A stretch of 64,000 bases of DNA from Octadecabacter antarcticus 307. GTDB taxonomy: Bacteria; Pseudomonadota; Alphaproteobacteria; Rhodobacterales; Rhodobacteraceae. This document shows, one piece after another, positions 34,327 to 39,785 of this stretch. The DNA lies in contig NC_020911.1 in NCBI RefSeq assembly GCF_000155675.2, positions 2,408,501 through 2,472,500 on the forward strand, given 5' to 3'. Positions within the stretch are counted from its first letter, which is position 1; every line of letters begins with the position of its first letter. Under the pieces are notes generated by a model. The model was given only the letters and a program-made list of their open reading frames with translations, did not search any database and was not told where the DNA came from. Both the position numbers and the translations under genes were made by a program.

Positions 34327-34896
34327 ATTGGCGTATTGTGCCAAAAACGCTCCGTTTTGGAACATTCGCCAGCAACTTGCTTTAAACTGCCAAAAACCCT
34401 TTTCTAAACCACTGCAGTTGTTAAAGGTTTTTGCCTGTCCTGCGATAGCTGCCATTCTTGGCCTCGCAGAATTTTCGTAAAACTAGCTTATTTTGTTAGA
34501 AAAATCTTGTTGATTTGAGGCTTGGCCCCTGATTCAATTGTTCCTAACAACGGGGGATGATTTCGATGTTGGGGCCAAAGCAAGAGGCGCAGGGCGCGTT
34601 GTTTTATGCGTTCTCGATAGATAATCACGTTCCTCAAGATCATCTGCTGCGATCCATTGATCGGCTTGTCGATCTGTCTGGCATCCGCCAATATTTAGCC
34701 GATTTTTACAGCCATACTGGTCGCTGTCCATTGATCCAGAACTGCTGATCCGAATGCTGCTGGTTGGCTGCTGCCTCGGCATTCGGTCCGAACATCGCCT
34801 CTGCGAAGAGGTGCATCTGAACCTTGCTTACCGCTGGTTCTGCGGACTGGATCTGAGCGACAATGTGCCCAACCACTCAACCTTTTCCAAAAGCCG

Positions 34897-34936
34897 CCCC
34901 TCTCATGGCGCAAGCGCAAACGACTGCCGGGCAATG
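34897..34936 (-). repeat. Hairpin element copy 1 (recombinant)
   Basis: Arms CCCTCTC and CTGCCGGGCAATG, central hairpin worn to GCGC-AA-GCGC. The left flank matches that of the copy at 36100, the right flank that of the copy at 36517. It is therefore a recombination product of two elements. Confidence 0.75.
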
Positions 34937-35041
34937 GATGTTGAGGCCACGCGGTCGATCCGTCAGGCCGAAGTCGGGTCCGTGCGCACGATGCTGGGAT
35001 GGTTAGTGGATCGTGGCATCGCGCCGCACATCCCGGTCATT

Positions 35042-35079
35042 CACTGCCTAGGATGTGCAGGTTCACATGCACGAGAGGG
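35042..35079 (+). repeat. Hairpin element copy 2
   Basis: CACTGCC arm, stem GTGCAGG/CATGCAC with one mismatch, then GAGAGGG. It lies in the same transposase position as the copy at 36740. Confidence 0.78.
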
Positions 35080-35360
35080 GATAAGGCTGGCCGCACCGAT
35101 GGCACCCTGAGCCGCGCTAATTTTGAGTGGGACCCGTAGGGCGACAAATACATCTGCCCAGAAAGTCAGTCGCTCAAGCAGTTCCGCCGCAACTCCTCCG
35201 ATCCCAGTCGAGGCCCAACCATGACGGGCAGGACAAAATATCGTGGGCCTAAACTGATCTGTCAGGCCTGCCCATCCAAAGCCAAATGCTGCCCGAATAC
35301 CGATGTTCGCAAGATCACCCGCGACGAACACGAAGACGCACGTCAAGTTGCCCGCGACAC

Positions 35361-35398
35361 CGACTGCCCAGCGGTGCATGTTTACATGCATGAGAGGG
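35361..35398 (+). repeat. Hairpin element copy 3
   Basis: CGACTGCCCAGC arm, hairpin TGCATG-TTTA-CATGCA, then GAGAGGG. The homologous site in IS copy 2 (junction 37058/37059) is empty. Confidence 0.8.
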
Positions 35399-36099
35399 GC
35401 CAAAAACCAAACAATATGCCGTTTCAATGCGACTGCGAAAGAAGGTCGAAATGCTCTTCGCAAGCCTCAAACGCATTCTTGGGTTGGGACGGCAGATTGA
35501 GATGACGAGGACCATGCGGCGCAAATGACGAATTTCTTCTCGCTGCAACCGCCCAATACCTCCACAAACTAGCTAAAATCTTTCCTGCACCGCAGCAAAT
35601 AGGCAAAGCGTGAGAAGAAAAGCGCTCGCGCCGTGTTCAACGCCCAACTTTCTGCGCCAGCAACACGGTGTTTTTCAACAAAATCGGCTTATCCTGTTGA
35701 AAAAATCTTGTTGATTTGAGGCTCTCCGGCTGATTCAATTATCCTTGATAACGGGGGGTGATTGCGATGTTGGGACCGAAGCAAGAGGCGCAAGGCGCGT
35801 TGTTTTATGAGTTTTCGATCGACGATCACGTCCCTCAGGATCACTTGCTGCGATCCATTGACCGCTTCGCTGATCTGTCTGGCATCCGTCAGCATTTGGC
35901 GCCATTTTACAGCAACACCGGCCGTCCCTCGATTGATCCCGAACTTCTGATCCGGATGTTGCTGGTCGGTTATTGTCTCGGCATTCGTTCGGAGCGTAGG
36001 CTTTGCGAAGAGGTTCATCTGAACCTCGCATATCGGTGGTTCTGCCGCCTCGATTTGACGGATCGCGTGCCGGACCATTCGACATTCTCCAAGAACCGC

Positions 36100-36138
36100 C
36101 CCTCTCATGGTTTGCAAGCAAACCACTGCCGGGCAGTG
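36100..36138 (-). repeat. Hairpin element copy 4 (39 bp, in frame)
   Basis: CCCTCTC arm, perfect 8-bp hairpin TGGTTTGC-AA-GCAAACCA, then CACTGCCGGGCAGTG. Its 39 bases keep the reading frame and add 13 residues (PSHGLQANHCRAV) to the transposase. Confidence 0.82.
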
Positions 36139-36516
36139 CATGGTCGTTTCCGCGACAGCGATCTGCTGCGTCACTTGTTTGAAACGACTGTGGCGCGATG
36201 CATGGCGGAGGGGTTGGTGAGTGGCCAGCGCTTTGCGGCAGATGCCAGTTTGATCGAAGCTGACGCTAACAAGCAGAACTCAACACCGAAGGCCGATTGG
36301 GATCACAGCGCGATCGACCCATCACAAGCACCGCGCGCTGTGATGGAATATCTTGGCGTTCTAGATGACGCTGCATTTGGTGCCGCCTCAGAAGTGGAAC
36401 CCAAGTTCACATCGCATTCTGACCCAGCCAGCCAGTGGACCGCAGCACGCAAAGGTCCTGCATTCTTTGCCTATTCAACCAATTACTTGATCGACACGGG
36501 TAATGCCGTGATTGTC

Positions 36517-36556
36517 CCCTCTCATGGTTTGCAGCGCAAACGACCGCCGGGCAATG
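36517..36556 (-). repeat. Hairpin element copy 5 (40 bp)
   Basis: CCCTCTC arm, hairpin GTTTGC-AGC-GCAAAC, then GCCGGGCAATG. Inserted between the codons for AVIV and DVEATRS, shifting the frame. Confidence 0.8.
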
Positions 36557-36739
36557 GATGTTGAGGCCACGCGGTCGATCTGTCAGGCCGAAGTTGGGTC
36601 CGTGCGCACGATGCTGGATCGCGTCAAAGATAGGTTTGATTTAGATCCTGAACGCATCATCGCAGATACCGCTTACGGGTCCGGCCCGATGCTGGGATGG
36701 TTAGTAGATCGTGGCATCGCCCCGCACATCCCTGTCATT

Positions 36740-36776
36740 CACTGCCCGGCAGTGCATGTTCGCATGCACGAAAGGG
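36740..36776 (+). repeat. Hairpin element copy 6 (37 bp)
   Basis: CACTGCC-C-GGCAGTG palindrome merging into hairpin GTGCATG-TTCG-CATGCAC, then GAAAGGG. Interrupts the transposase between VI and DKASRTDGT. Confidence 0.82.
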
Positions 36777-37464
36777 GATAAAGCCAGTCGCACCGATGGC
36801 ACCTGGAGTAGGGAAGACTTTGAGTGGGACGCTGAGAACAACCAATACATCTGCCCGGAAGGCGAAGCGCTCAAGCAGTTCCGCCGCAACTTCTCCGACC
36901 CCAGTCGAGGCCCCGACGGCAAGGGCGTCGCCAAGTATCAGGCGCTAAAGTTGTCGTGCCAAGCCTGTCCCTCAAAACCTAAATGTTGCCCGAATGCAGA
37001 TGTGCGCAAGATCACCCGCGAAGAACACGAAGACGCCCGCCAGGTCGCCCGAGATATTGCTAAGACCAAGCAATACGCCGTTTCAATGCGACTGAGGAAA
37101 AAGCTCGAGATGCTCTTCGCTCACCTCAAACGCATCCTGGGGCTAGGACGGCTTCGATTACGAGGACCATGCGGCGCAAATGACGAATTTCTACTCGCCG
37201 CAACCGCCCAAAACCTCCGCAAACTGGCCAAGATCCTTCCTGCACCGCAGCAAGCGTGCAAAGCCTGATAAGAAAGGCGCTTGCGCCCAGTTCAACGCCA
37301 GACTTTCTGCACGCGCAACACGGTGTTTTTCAACAGAATCGGCTAAACCTGATGGGGTTGATGGCTCCTGCTCCAACCAGCGTCGCAATGCGCTATACTG
37401 CAGGTGTCGAAACCTACTTATAAAAGGAGCCAACCCCATGCAAGTTACCACAATCGGCGTTGAT

Positions 37465-37504
37465 CCATCGACCAGCAGGCGAATGCGCAGCAATCGCTGA
37501 GAGG
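37465..37504 (+). repeat. Hairpin element copy 7
   Basis: Divergent copy: CCAGCAG arm, GCGAATGC-GCA-GCAATCGC with one mismatch, then GAGAGG. Inserted between the codons for GVD and LAKN of the IS110 transposase. Confidence 0.65.
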
Positions 37505-37790
37505 TTGGCCAAGAACATTTTTCAAGTTCATGGGATCACTGAAGACGAAGAGGTCGCCTTCAACCGGCCTTTGAGACGCGCACAGCTATTGCCGTTCTTC
37601 TCCAAGATTGATCCCTGCCTGATTGGCATGGAGGCCTGTAGCAGCGCGCATCATTGGGCCCGGGAACTCACGGCGTTGGGCCATGATGTTCGGCTGATCC
37701 CGCCGATATATGTCAAGCCATACGTTAAGCGCGGCAAGTCTGATGCGATCGATGCAGAGGCGATTTGTGAAGCGGTGACCCGTCCGACGA

Positions 37791-37828
37791 TCATTGCCGG
37801 CAGGTGAAGCTTGCATTCACCGAGAGGG
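37791..37828 (+). repeat. Hairpin element copy 8
   Basis: TTGCCGGCAG arm, hairpin GGTGAA-N7-TTCACC, then GAGAGGG. Splits the IS110 transposase after VTRPT. Confidence 0.7.
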
Positions 37829-38163
37829 CGGTTTGTTGCAAAAACCGTTTAGCAACAAGATCTGCTGTCACTCCATCGCACACGGGCTCTGCTTGTCCGC
37901 CAACGCACGCAGCTGATCAATAGCTTGCGTGGCCTGGTCGCTGAGTTCGGCGTTTACATCGCGAGGGGCCTCGCGAGGATCATCGGATTTGCAGAGGATG
38001 TTTTAGTAGGCGAAGTGCTAGACTTGCCCGAAATTGCCAAGGAAGTGATCCATAATCTATGCGAACATCTCATGGCATTGCATGTACGGATTCGGTGGTA
38101 TGAAGATCGGCTCAAGCTGGTCGCCAAGGAAGATGTGCGGGTCCGTTTGTTGCGCACTATTCC

Positions 38164-38200
38164 CGCTCTCGGGCATGTAAACATGCCCTGCTGGGCAGTG
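38164..38200 (-). repeat. Hairpin element copy 9
   Basis: GCTCTC arm, perfect hairpin GGGCATG-TAAA-CATGCCC, then TGCTGGGCAGTG. Interrupts the IS110 transposase after RTIP. Confidence 0.78.
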
Positions 38201-38349
38201 GGACGTTGGTGTTGTGACAGCCTCGGCGATCATCGCCAGCATTGGTGATGGCCATCAATTCAGCAATGGCCGCGAGTTTGCAGCATGGTTGGGGTTGACG
38301 CCCGCGAACAAATCCAGCGGCGGTAAAGAGAAACTCGGGCGCATTACAA

Positions 38350-38455
38350 CCCTCTCGGGACATTGCGTCGTGCTGCAAGCACGCCCATGGCGTGACGCAA
38401 TACCCTGTCCCGTTGCCGGGCAACACATGCACAGCATGTGTGAGAGGGGGCAGTG
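38350..38455 (-). repeat. Composite hairpin element, one copy nested in another
   Basis: The outer copy starts CCCTCTC and has long imperfect stems (GGGACA/TGTCCC and TTGCGTC/GACGCAA) around an inner GTGCT-GCA-AGCAC hairpin. Its right arm GCCGGGCAGTG appears split by a second element lying in the opposite orientation. Confidence 0.55.
38411..38449 (+). repeat. Hairpin element copy 10 (inner, nested)
   Basis: GTTGCCGGGCA arm, perfect hairpin ACACATGC-ACA-GCATGTGT, then GAGAGGG. Confidence 0.72.
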
Positions 38456-38601
38456 AATGGGTGATCAATACTTACGATCATTGCTGGTCGTTAGCATGAC
38501 ATCACTCGTCCGACAGACCAAGTCGCACCCGGAGCGAGCAAGCAAGTGGCTGACATCACTGCTGGAACGAAAACCCGCGCGCGTCGCAACCGTCGCTATC
38601 G

Positions 38602-38614
38602 CTGCCCGAGAGGG
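38602..38614 (+). repeat. Footprint of a hairpin element
   Basis: Only CTGCCCGAGAGGG remains, i.e. the two arms without a hairpin, inserted in the IS110 transposase just before codons for NKTARIVWAV. Confidence 0.5.
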
Positions 38615-38824
38615 GCCAATAAAACGGCAAGGATCGTCTGGGCCGTTTTAACGCGCAACGAACCTTATACAACGCACATTACTTAAGAGAGGAAGAACAA
38701 AGAGTTAGCAAGACCCACGAGATGATGGTGCATAAGTCTGCCGCCAAAACCAGGACACCCCGTCGAAAGTCCCGGGCGATATAGCCCGCTAAGCTGTAAG
38801 GGACTTGGTCTGCGGAACCCATCC

Positions 38825-38865
38825 GTTGCCCAGCAGGCGATTGCGTAGCAATCTGCCGAGAGGGG
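38825..38865 (+). repeat. Hairpin element copy 11
   Basis: TTGCCCAGCAG arm, hairpin GATTGC-GTA-GCAATC, then GAGAGGGG. Confidence 0.72.
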
Positions 38866-38892
38866 GGCAGCGGTCAAAACCGCGCAAACAGG

Positions 38893-38932
38893 CCCCTCTC
38901 ATTGATTGCCTTGCAACCAACTGCCGGGCAGC
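38893..38932 (-). repeat. Hairpin element copy 12
   Basis: CCCTCTC arm, TTGATTGC-CTT-GCAACCAA with one mismatch, then CTGCCGGGCAG. Inverted relative to copy 11, about 27 bases away. Confidence 0.72.
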
Positions 38933-39228
38933 GGGAACACATGACTGCTTCTGACAAATGCACAAATCTGATCAAAAATGTCTTGCTATGCAGGAGCCAT
39001 CAACACAAGACTTTCTCCGCGCGATGCACTGAGGTCCACGCTGCTCACAAAGCCGCCGTTTGACCCGAGCAGGTAGATGTCCGCGTAACTTGCCTGTTTC
39101 TAAGATGACGCTGCAACGTTCAATCTTATTGCCCGTCCTTATGTGGTTCGCAATGGACGCTTTCATTTTCCACCTAATGGATCGAAACCACCGGCTTCTA
39201 GCCGGTCAGCTTCAGGGAATCTATGATT

Positions 39229-39294
39229 GATCTTCTCTCCTGAATTTTGAAACCATACTGCTAATGCGGGTTTCAAAATTCAGGAGAGAAGATC
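39229..39294 (+). promoter_or_regulatory. 26-bp perfect inverted repeat hiding the tnpA ribosome site
   Basis: Arms 39229-39254 and 39269-39294 are perfectly complementary, loop of 14 bases, and the right arm ends directly at the tnpA ATG. The ribosome site AGGAGAG lies within the right arm, so the mRNA hairpin would block translation. IS200 elements are known to limit transposase synthesis this way. Confidence 0.75.
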
Positions 39295-39712
39295 ATGCGT
39301 TATTCCTCATCCGCGCACATGCGATTTTACCACAGATTTCACGTCGTGTGGGTCACAAAATGTCGTGTGGGTCACAAAACATAGATACAAGGTTTTGCAG
39401 GGTGCGATGCGAGAGCGGATACGCGAGATTATCATGCAAACATGCGCCGAAATGGGCGTCCATATCGTGAAAGGTGTGCTGGGACGCGATCATGTGCACA
39501 TGTTCCTGTCGATCCCACCAAAACTGTCCTTGTCCAACGTTATGCAACGCATAAAGGGCCGCTCGTCGCGCCGCATCCAGATGGAATTCCCTGAGTTGCG
39601 CAAGCGCTACTGGGGCAGGCGGTTTTGGGCACGCGGATATTTCTCAACCACCTCTGGAAATGTGACTGACGACATCATCACGCAGTATCTGGAATTGCAT
39701 TCCTCTAAATGA
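39295..39712 (+). pseudogene. IS200-type TnpA (Y1 HUH transposase), frameshifted by a 19-bp duplication
   Basis: Reads MRYSSSAHMRFYHRFHVVWV and then hits a tandem duplication: 39343-39361 and 39362-39380 are the same 19 bases with one difference. Removing one copy gives a continuous 132-residue protein with HUH motif GRDHVHMFLSIPP and nucleophile tyrosine in RGYFSTTSG. The second piece alone is open from 39365. All catalytic parts are preserved, so the element may have moved recently and could be restored by loss of one repeat. Confidence 0.8.
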
Positions 39713-39785
39713 GGCTACCGGCGTCAGCCGGTAGTCCTTCACCGCGGGCCCGTGTCACTGACGCCGCGCGTTGTGGTGGGCGGCG

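Follow-up and report, generated by a model that had tools for sequence, protein, structure and literature searches.

The DNA analysed here, a stretch of 64,000 nucleotides from Octadecabacter antarcticus 307 (the window, corresponding to C2:2408501-2472500 of the 4,875,481-bp genome), carries between window positions 34898 and 38933 a cluster of short palindromic elements in and around two transposase genes of insertion sequences (IS), one IS1182-like and one IS110-like. The elements share the layout CRYTGCC-N-GGCAG, stem-loop-stem, GAGAGGG and are mostly 37-41 nt long, with lengths ranging from 37 to 43 nt. A first-pass annotation of this DNA had counted at least thirteen copies in both orientations, with these arms and with hairpin stems that differ from copy to copy. 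The arms are as it described, the stems it quoted were found in the window (that of copy 1 being broken) and twelve copies in both orientations are clear; the thirteenth, at 38350-38410, is uncertain (Table 1). Nine of the clear copies were found by a scanner and three (34898, 37466 and 37792) were added by eye. The left arm alone matched 11 times in the window, compared with 2.6 matches expected. An Rfam search of the window returned no match for the elements, with only a tRNA at gathering threshold.

Table 1. Palindromic inserts and host IS genes in the cluster (window coordinates)
Feature	Positions	Strand	Description
Insert 1	34898..34936	-	broken stem; in IS1182-like remnant
Insert 2	35042..35079	+	38 nt
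Insert 3	35362..35398	+	37 nt; stem TGCATG/CATGCA
Insert 4	36100..36138	-	39 nt; stem TGGTTTGC/GCAAACCA; IS1182-like transposase at FSKNR|HGRF
Insert 5	36517..36556	-	40 nt; frameshifting; at AVIV|DVEATR
Insert 6	36740..36776	+	37 nt; frameshifting; at IPVI|DK
Insert 7	37466..37505	+	40 nt; GAGAGGT end; close to IS110-like transposase start
Insert 8	37792..37828	+	37 nt; left arm minus one C; stem GTGAA.GC/GC.TTCAC
Insert 9	38164..38200	-	37 nt; stem GGGCATG/CATGCCC; IS110-like transposase near RTIP|DVG
Insert 10 (uncertain)	38350..38410	-	expanded or partly overwritten copy adjoining insert 11
Insert 11	38411..38448	+	38 nt; left arm TTGCC.GGCAA; stem ACACATGC/GCATGTGT
Arm-arm remnant	38600..38614	+	left arm joined straight to right arm; hairpin deleted
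Insert 12	38824..38864	+	41 nt; bulged class GGCA..GATTGC/GCAATC..TGCC (here AGCA)
Insert 13	38894..38933	-	40 nt; stem TTGGTTGC/GCAATCAA
IS1182-like transposase gene (host IS)	35758..37270	+	Pfam DUF772, weak DDE_Tnp_1; inserts 4-6
IS110-like gene (host IS)	37440..38660	+	PF02371 match C2:2446705-2446848 (window 38205-38348); inserts 7-11

Copy number and habitat of the family

The further copies that the first-pass annotation expected were found in this genome and in other Rhodobacteraceae. In the own genome, the strict pattern CTGCCN{18,30}GAGAGGGG gave 148 matches and its reversed form 0, and a covariance model gave at least 150. The listed strict-pattern places and the covariance-model matches together yield 188 genome-wide positions, which is a lower bound. 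In 768,550 bp of fetched DNA, comprising 76 stretches around these positions and the window, 427 copies were counted with the bulged class included, compared with 2 when the sequence was reversed and 5 when it was block-shuffled; a second set, of 387 copies, comes from a scanner that misses the bulged class.

To place these copies, transposase similarity was scored in their surroundings. At most 330 bp separated 179 of the 188 genome-wide copies from such similarity, compared with 31 of 300 random window positions, and with 26 curated references the figures were 163 of 188 and 28 of 300. Of the nine copies beyond the larger reference set, seven belong to IS5-like copies in which neighbouring sites have frames with DDE_Tnp matches, and two were read as IS3 orfA without Pfam confirmation. 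No copy was recognised in host genes or host intergenic DNA among the 188. Clustering by flanks gave 135 sites (25-nt flanks) or 109 sites (12+12 nt), one of the 135 (C2:1037871, in an ATPase-like gene) being a 30-nt chance palindrome and 16 low-scoring ones being set apart where the arms were defined. Transposase similarity was present at 101 of the 109 sites with the curated references and a laxer threshold, or at 96 with an earlier stricter threshold and a reference set that held three integrase-like open reading frames and possibly some antisense frames. At six of the 13 sites left by the earlier set, Pfam matches point to transposase or IS66 TnpB domains; the remaining seven, five without a Pfam match and two not queried, were read as IS remnants or ends. 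The Pfam families found at the sites include DUF772, DDE_Tnp_1, rve, rve_3, Transposase_mut, IstB_IS21, DDE_Tnp_IS66 and TnpB_IS66, and the host IS DNA spans at least eight transposase types, the IS family names used here being our own labels. For comparison, the part of the genome paper drawn on here (PMC3646047) gives 186 IS3, 72 IS110 (39 of these pseudogenes) and 42 IS5 entries for the strain.

A restriction of this kind could also arise if insertion were random and only copies in IS elements survived, since IS copies are junk and get copied. The dispensability of IS elements, their amplification of any cargo and the weak constraint on insert-bearing copies described below fit this idea. 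Insert-bearing IS copies have multiplied, one IS3-family copy with eight or nine inserts being present at four loci that are 98.1-99.9% identical over 1.6 kb. Random insertion predicts copies in host intergenic DNA, however, and none were recognised among the 188. Single-copy sites are frequent (65/135 or 42/109, by clustering), and amplification is therefore not the reason for the IS bias. In addition, IS6-like and Y1 genes look nearly spared, at 0.05-0.07 inserts per kb, a figure biased by the choice of loci with intact domains. We consider random insertion with selective survival quite unlikely.

Across genomes, the covariance model matched in 23 of 61, own included (per-genome counts are lower bounds); all 23 are Rhodobacteraceae, and 0 of 24 genomes outside the family had a match. 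The strict pattern matched in 55 of 248 Rhodobacteraceae genomes, own included, at least one of which (G099) looks like chance, and the reversed pattern gave none in the same table. Among 129 copies in other genera, 102 or 86, by reference set, showed transposase similarity; by reading, many of the others were assigned to IS5 or IS66, and a few resemble chance palindromes. Among the matches listed in a scan of named contigs, most were from Rhodobacteraceae. The gammaproteobacterium Vreelandella neptunia also has real copies (L149 and L211), which suggests transfer together with IS elements.

Insertion and the interrupted gene

The elements' arms are not native IS parts. All placed copies lie in IS DNA, as would be expected if the palindromes belonged to the IS elements themselves, the outcome that the first-pass annotation had named as contrary to its proposal; but IS families unrelated to one another share these inserts and there are empty paralogous sites, and we regard a native origin as hardly credible. 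By a script rule, the fetched DNA contains insert-free counterparts of 67 of the 135 clusters, with flank identities of 69-100% and five rows reaching 97%. The cleanest case is C2:1981726, where 39 nt stand between GTGTC and AGGC in comparison with an empty copy with identical flanks at about C2:3084489. No target-site duplication was present in this pair, and none was seen at other comparable sites. Neither this lack of duplication nor the location in transposase genes of many IS families had been noticed in the first-pass annotation.

A target preference, considered by the first-pass annotation, was found as approximately YCATC^(G), with insertion in either orientation. On leave-one-out scoring with the left flank alone, the used site fell within the best 5% of positions at 58 of the 109 sites (median 3.6%). 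With both flanks scored it did so at 74 of 109, an inflated figure, as the base directly after the insert (+1), a G in 75% of the 109 sites, may be element or target. Relative to the gene, 48 inserts are antisense and 27 sense (75 sites), and codon phases 0/2/1 at 48 sites number 24/10/0 for antisense and 6/5/3 for sense inserts. Targeting of a codon phase, namely the codon boundary before Asp, was considered and set aside, as by our estimate the phases are largely what a ^GATGR target yields.

Insert length is not a multiple of three, and hence frame-shifting, in 320 of the 387 inserts. Removing the inserts in silico often restored a continuous frame: each of six IS1182-like copies carrying 2-3 inserts (L262-L265, L268 and L269) gave one of 461 codons, and the IS3-family copy with eight or nine inserts was nearly read through, with one frame step in orfB. 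No insert-free full-length copy of the IS1182-like IS was recognised among 22 matches; partial copies L279 and L280 are without an arm. To gauge constraint after insertion, codon positions of differences were counted, each difference once and with the curated references, in 59 pairs with frameshifting inserts and less than 3% divergence, in which change is most surely post-insertion. Positions 1-3 numbered 32, 16 and 33 on the gene-upstream side and 28, 19 and 28 on the gene-downstream side. Pooled, first positions account for 60 and third positions for 61 of 156 differences, with no third-position excess over first. An earlier tally of recent pairs that included repeats gave 37, 27 and 32 upstream and 32, 24 and 42 downstream. 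Frameshifts together with at most weak constraint in recent changes indicate that the inserts probably inactivate the transposase.

The alternative is that the inserts are spliced from the message or bypassed by the ribosome, the interrupted transposases still working; T4 gene 60 and the byp elements of Magnusiomyces mitochondria are precedents for such skipping. The regained 461-codon frames, the lack of a recognised insert-free full-length copy among the 22 IS1182-like matches and the multiplication of insert-loaded IS copies are in keeping with it, as are a third-position excess in older pairs and the low second-position change in recent ones, both detailed below. On the other side stand the absence of a third-position excess in recent pairs, the occurrence of inserts in both orientations to the gene, the variable insert lengths and a codon phase broadly as the target motif gives. 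Moreover, none were seen in host genes, where skipping should render inserts harmless. Bypass had more weight before the pairs were separated by divergence and the differences counted once with the curated references. As recent differences show at most weak constraint, bypass is not favoured and appears very unlikely; on the sequences at hand, we hold with moderate confidence that inactivation of the transposase is likelier.

Paired stem changes and arm copying

The first-pass annotation had inferred from covarying stems that the hairpin structure is what is kept. A dispersed family with a conserved hairpin is borne out: across 18 copies, chosen for diversity, 108 of 108 stem cells were paired, with a covariation score of 0.911 compared with 0.250 ± 0.046 in shuffles, and sliding the partner left only 15-48% of stem cells paired in the same copies. 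The first two bases were assumed in some of these rows (strict-pattern ones), which leaves the stem columns unaffected. Among 293 distinct sequences from the own and other genomes, 197 fold as straight hairpins, whose stems comprise 80 distinct strings if point-mutated variants are counted; the bulged class GGCA..GATTGC/GCAATC..TGCC is also common. In the first hairpin T.G is favoured over C.A, at 70 and 10 of the 293 sequences, respectively, the corresponding counts for the inner stem being biased by the scanner.

Natural pairs indicate how the stems change. At the same nucleotide, two pairs of near-identical IS copies (297/300 and 296/300 flank bases) carry unrelated stems, so that either hot sites are hit repeatedly or the sequence between the conserved arms is replaced. 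In a third pair, with 300/300 identical flanks, one copy has CGGCAG in its left half and the other has CTCTCA, which is complementary to the right arm. CGGCAG, the family norm, is probably the older state, and a left half that complements the right arm means templated arm copying. At two further sites (C2:2658098 and 1026404) a copied-arm copy is likewise accompanied by copies that keep the usual arm on an identical or almost identical stem, and a fourth copied-arm site (256494/2824737) has no usual-arm counterpart. Because one arm can be copied from the other, stems can stay complementary without selection on RNA. The covariation is thus real, but it need not mean such selection.

Interpretation and relation to known systems

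We propose, with a probability of roughly 0.64, that these palindromes form a family of mobile elements that are very small, non-coding, non-autonomous and specialised on IS elements. In the proposed mechanism, an insert would put the transposase gene out of frame and probably inactivate the transposase, and the insert-carrying IS would then move by transposase supplied from elsewhere, IS elements serving as both vehicle and safe haven. Mobility may proceed through a folded single strand, with two hairpins and a tail, recognised in trans by an enzyme. The lack of target duplication, the loose target, the two hairpins and the excess of T.G over C.A fit such recognition. Stems would change in pairs partly through template switching, one arm being copied from the other. 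IS transposition intermediates or incoming DNA are possibilities for the target pool.

Several points weigh against this proposal. No mobilising enzyme and no longer master were recognised, full-length masters being something the first-pass annotation had suggested looking for; exact arms 26-56 bp apart gave 0 matches in the own genome (longer spacing was not searched genome-wide), and we took the orphan arms in the 768 kb fetched for damaged or bulged copies. The loose YCATC^G preference leaves the restriction to IS DNA unaccounted for, and the IS placement of 9 of the 188 copies rests on reading or on Pfam matches of neighbouring frames. The empty site of the IS3 orfA (97-99% identity) is not clean, neighbouring bases having changed too, and insertion may exchange about one base of the target. 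Second positions are low in the pooled recent differences (60, 35 and 61; chi-square about 8.3, 2 d.f.), which may reflect some remaining constraint. Downstream third-position excesses occur in 14 pairs at 3-6% divergence (28, 20 and 43; upstream 13, 5 and 10) and in 3 pairs at 6-12% (6, 3 and 25; upstream 12, 16 and 9), and would fit continued function of some insert-bearing genes. Finally, recombination between IS copies makes ages hard to fix.

We read the third-position excess in the 3-12% pairs as divergence that predates insertion. In these pairs the elements are less diverged than their flanks (10/365 and 293/5486 bases, respectively, with repeats), and in pairs below 3% elements and flanks are about equally diverged (12/2175 and 234/38867 bases, with repeats). 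As IS copies are mosaics, an insert and its flanks can differ in age in either direction.

The mobiliser could be a Y1 transposase of the IS200/RAYT type that has single-stranded DNA hairpins as its substrate, which would make the palindromes REP-like. The absence of target duplication, the short target, the hairpins and the T.G preference agree with this, as do the many Y1 matches (24 and 48) in the two richest Octadecabacter genomes. However, 13 of the 15 element-bearing family genomes covered by both searches have no PF01797 match, three of the 13 (G015, G019 and G022) having a single element match each and the rich genomes G025 and G031 lying outside the Y1 comparison. No REPtron-like arrangement was seen at the 24 own-genome Y1 loci. 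REP/REPIN sequences with RAYT (GTAG and CGTC superfamilies), as described in the part of PMC3733652 used here, are similar in their 20-40 bp size, hairpin and high copy number. In contrast, the present elements have no GTAG or CGTC tag at the hairpin foot, their arms being CRYTGCC.GGCAG and GAGAGGG; they lie in IS DNA where REP sequences are mainly extragenic, and no linked RAYT gene was seen. A Y1 transposase is therefore a poor candidate for a universal mobiliser, and this explanation seems rather unlikely. A Y1 (IS200-type) transposase gene does adjoin the cluster, at window 39264-39730 (PF01797 match C2:2447862-2448194).

Other known families share single traits with the proposed IS-specialised elements. 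Rickettsia palindromic elements (RPE) are likewise palindromic inserts within reading frames of an alphaproteobacterium. RPE are longer and in-frame in host genes, whereas most of the present elements are frameshifting and their hosts are transposase genes. The double-hairpin elements, GC clusters and byp elements of mitochondria are also tiny, hairpin-based and mobile with variable stems; those are organellar, and the present elements are bacterial and IS-specific, with skipping not favoured. Bacterial miniature inverted-repeat transposable elements (MITEs) are also non-autonomous and high in copy number, but the present elements are without target duplication and no parental transposon was recognised for them. 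The family works like a non-autonomous palindromic mobile element that is not filed under REP/REPIN, RPE, MITE or the mitochondrial families. No description of it was found in the open-access literature searched, most subscription papers lying outside that search, and the main text of the genome paper, as far as it was available (PMC3646047), has no word starting with 'palindrom' or 'repeat'.

The elements would count as one of the smallest kinds of mobile DNA, strongly restricted in habitat and with dozens of hairpin stems that covary inside coding DNA, and may explain part of the transposase pseudogenes in IS-rich polar roseobacters. Pairs with different stems at the same site, with empty and filled sites, or with a copied arm offer natural means to test how tiny palindromes move. 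The inserts often directly precede aspartate codons of conserved transposase motifs, which we take to be the catalytic ones. A more tentative extension, which we put well below the proposal itself, is an obligate IS hyperparasite, a 40-bp hairpin that with an unknown enzyme homes to IS DNA, disables the transposase and then rides the IS; if true, it could be a natural brake on IS expansion in Rhodobacteraceae.

Further observations concern rearranged copies. The IS1182-like copies L261-L269 are mosaics with sharp identity changes, one of them close to the first insert, as if inserts marked or promoted gene conversion. In the window, insert 1 is flanked by one flank of insert 4 and one flank of insert 5 of the neighbouring IS1182-like copy and looks like a fusion of these two. 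The degenerate IS1182-like copy at 34557-35600 looks like a deletion derivative, such as would result from recombination between two inserts with loss of the intervening DNA. An insert near-identical to insert 7 is present in L267 and L269. Insert 10 (38350-38410) shows stems like GGGTATTGCGTC/GACGCAATGTCCC with a long loop and is possibly a nested or expanded element.

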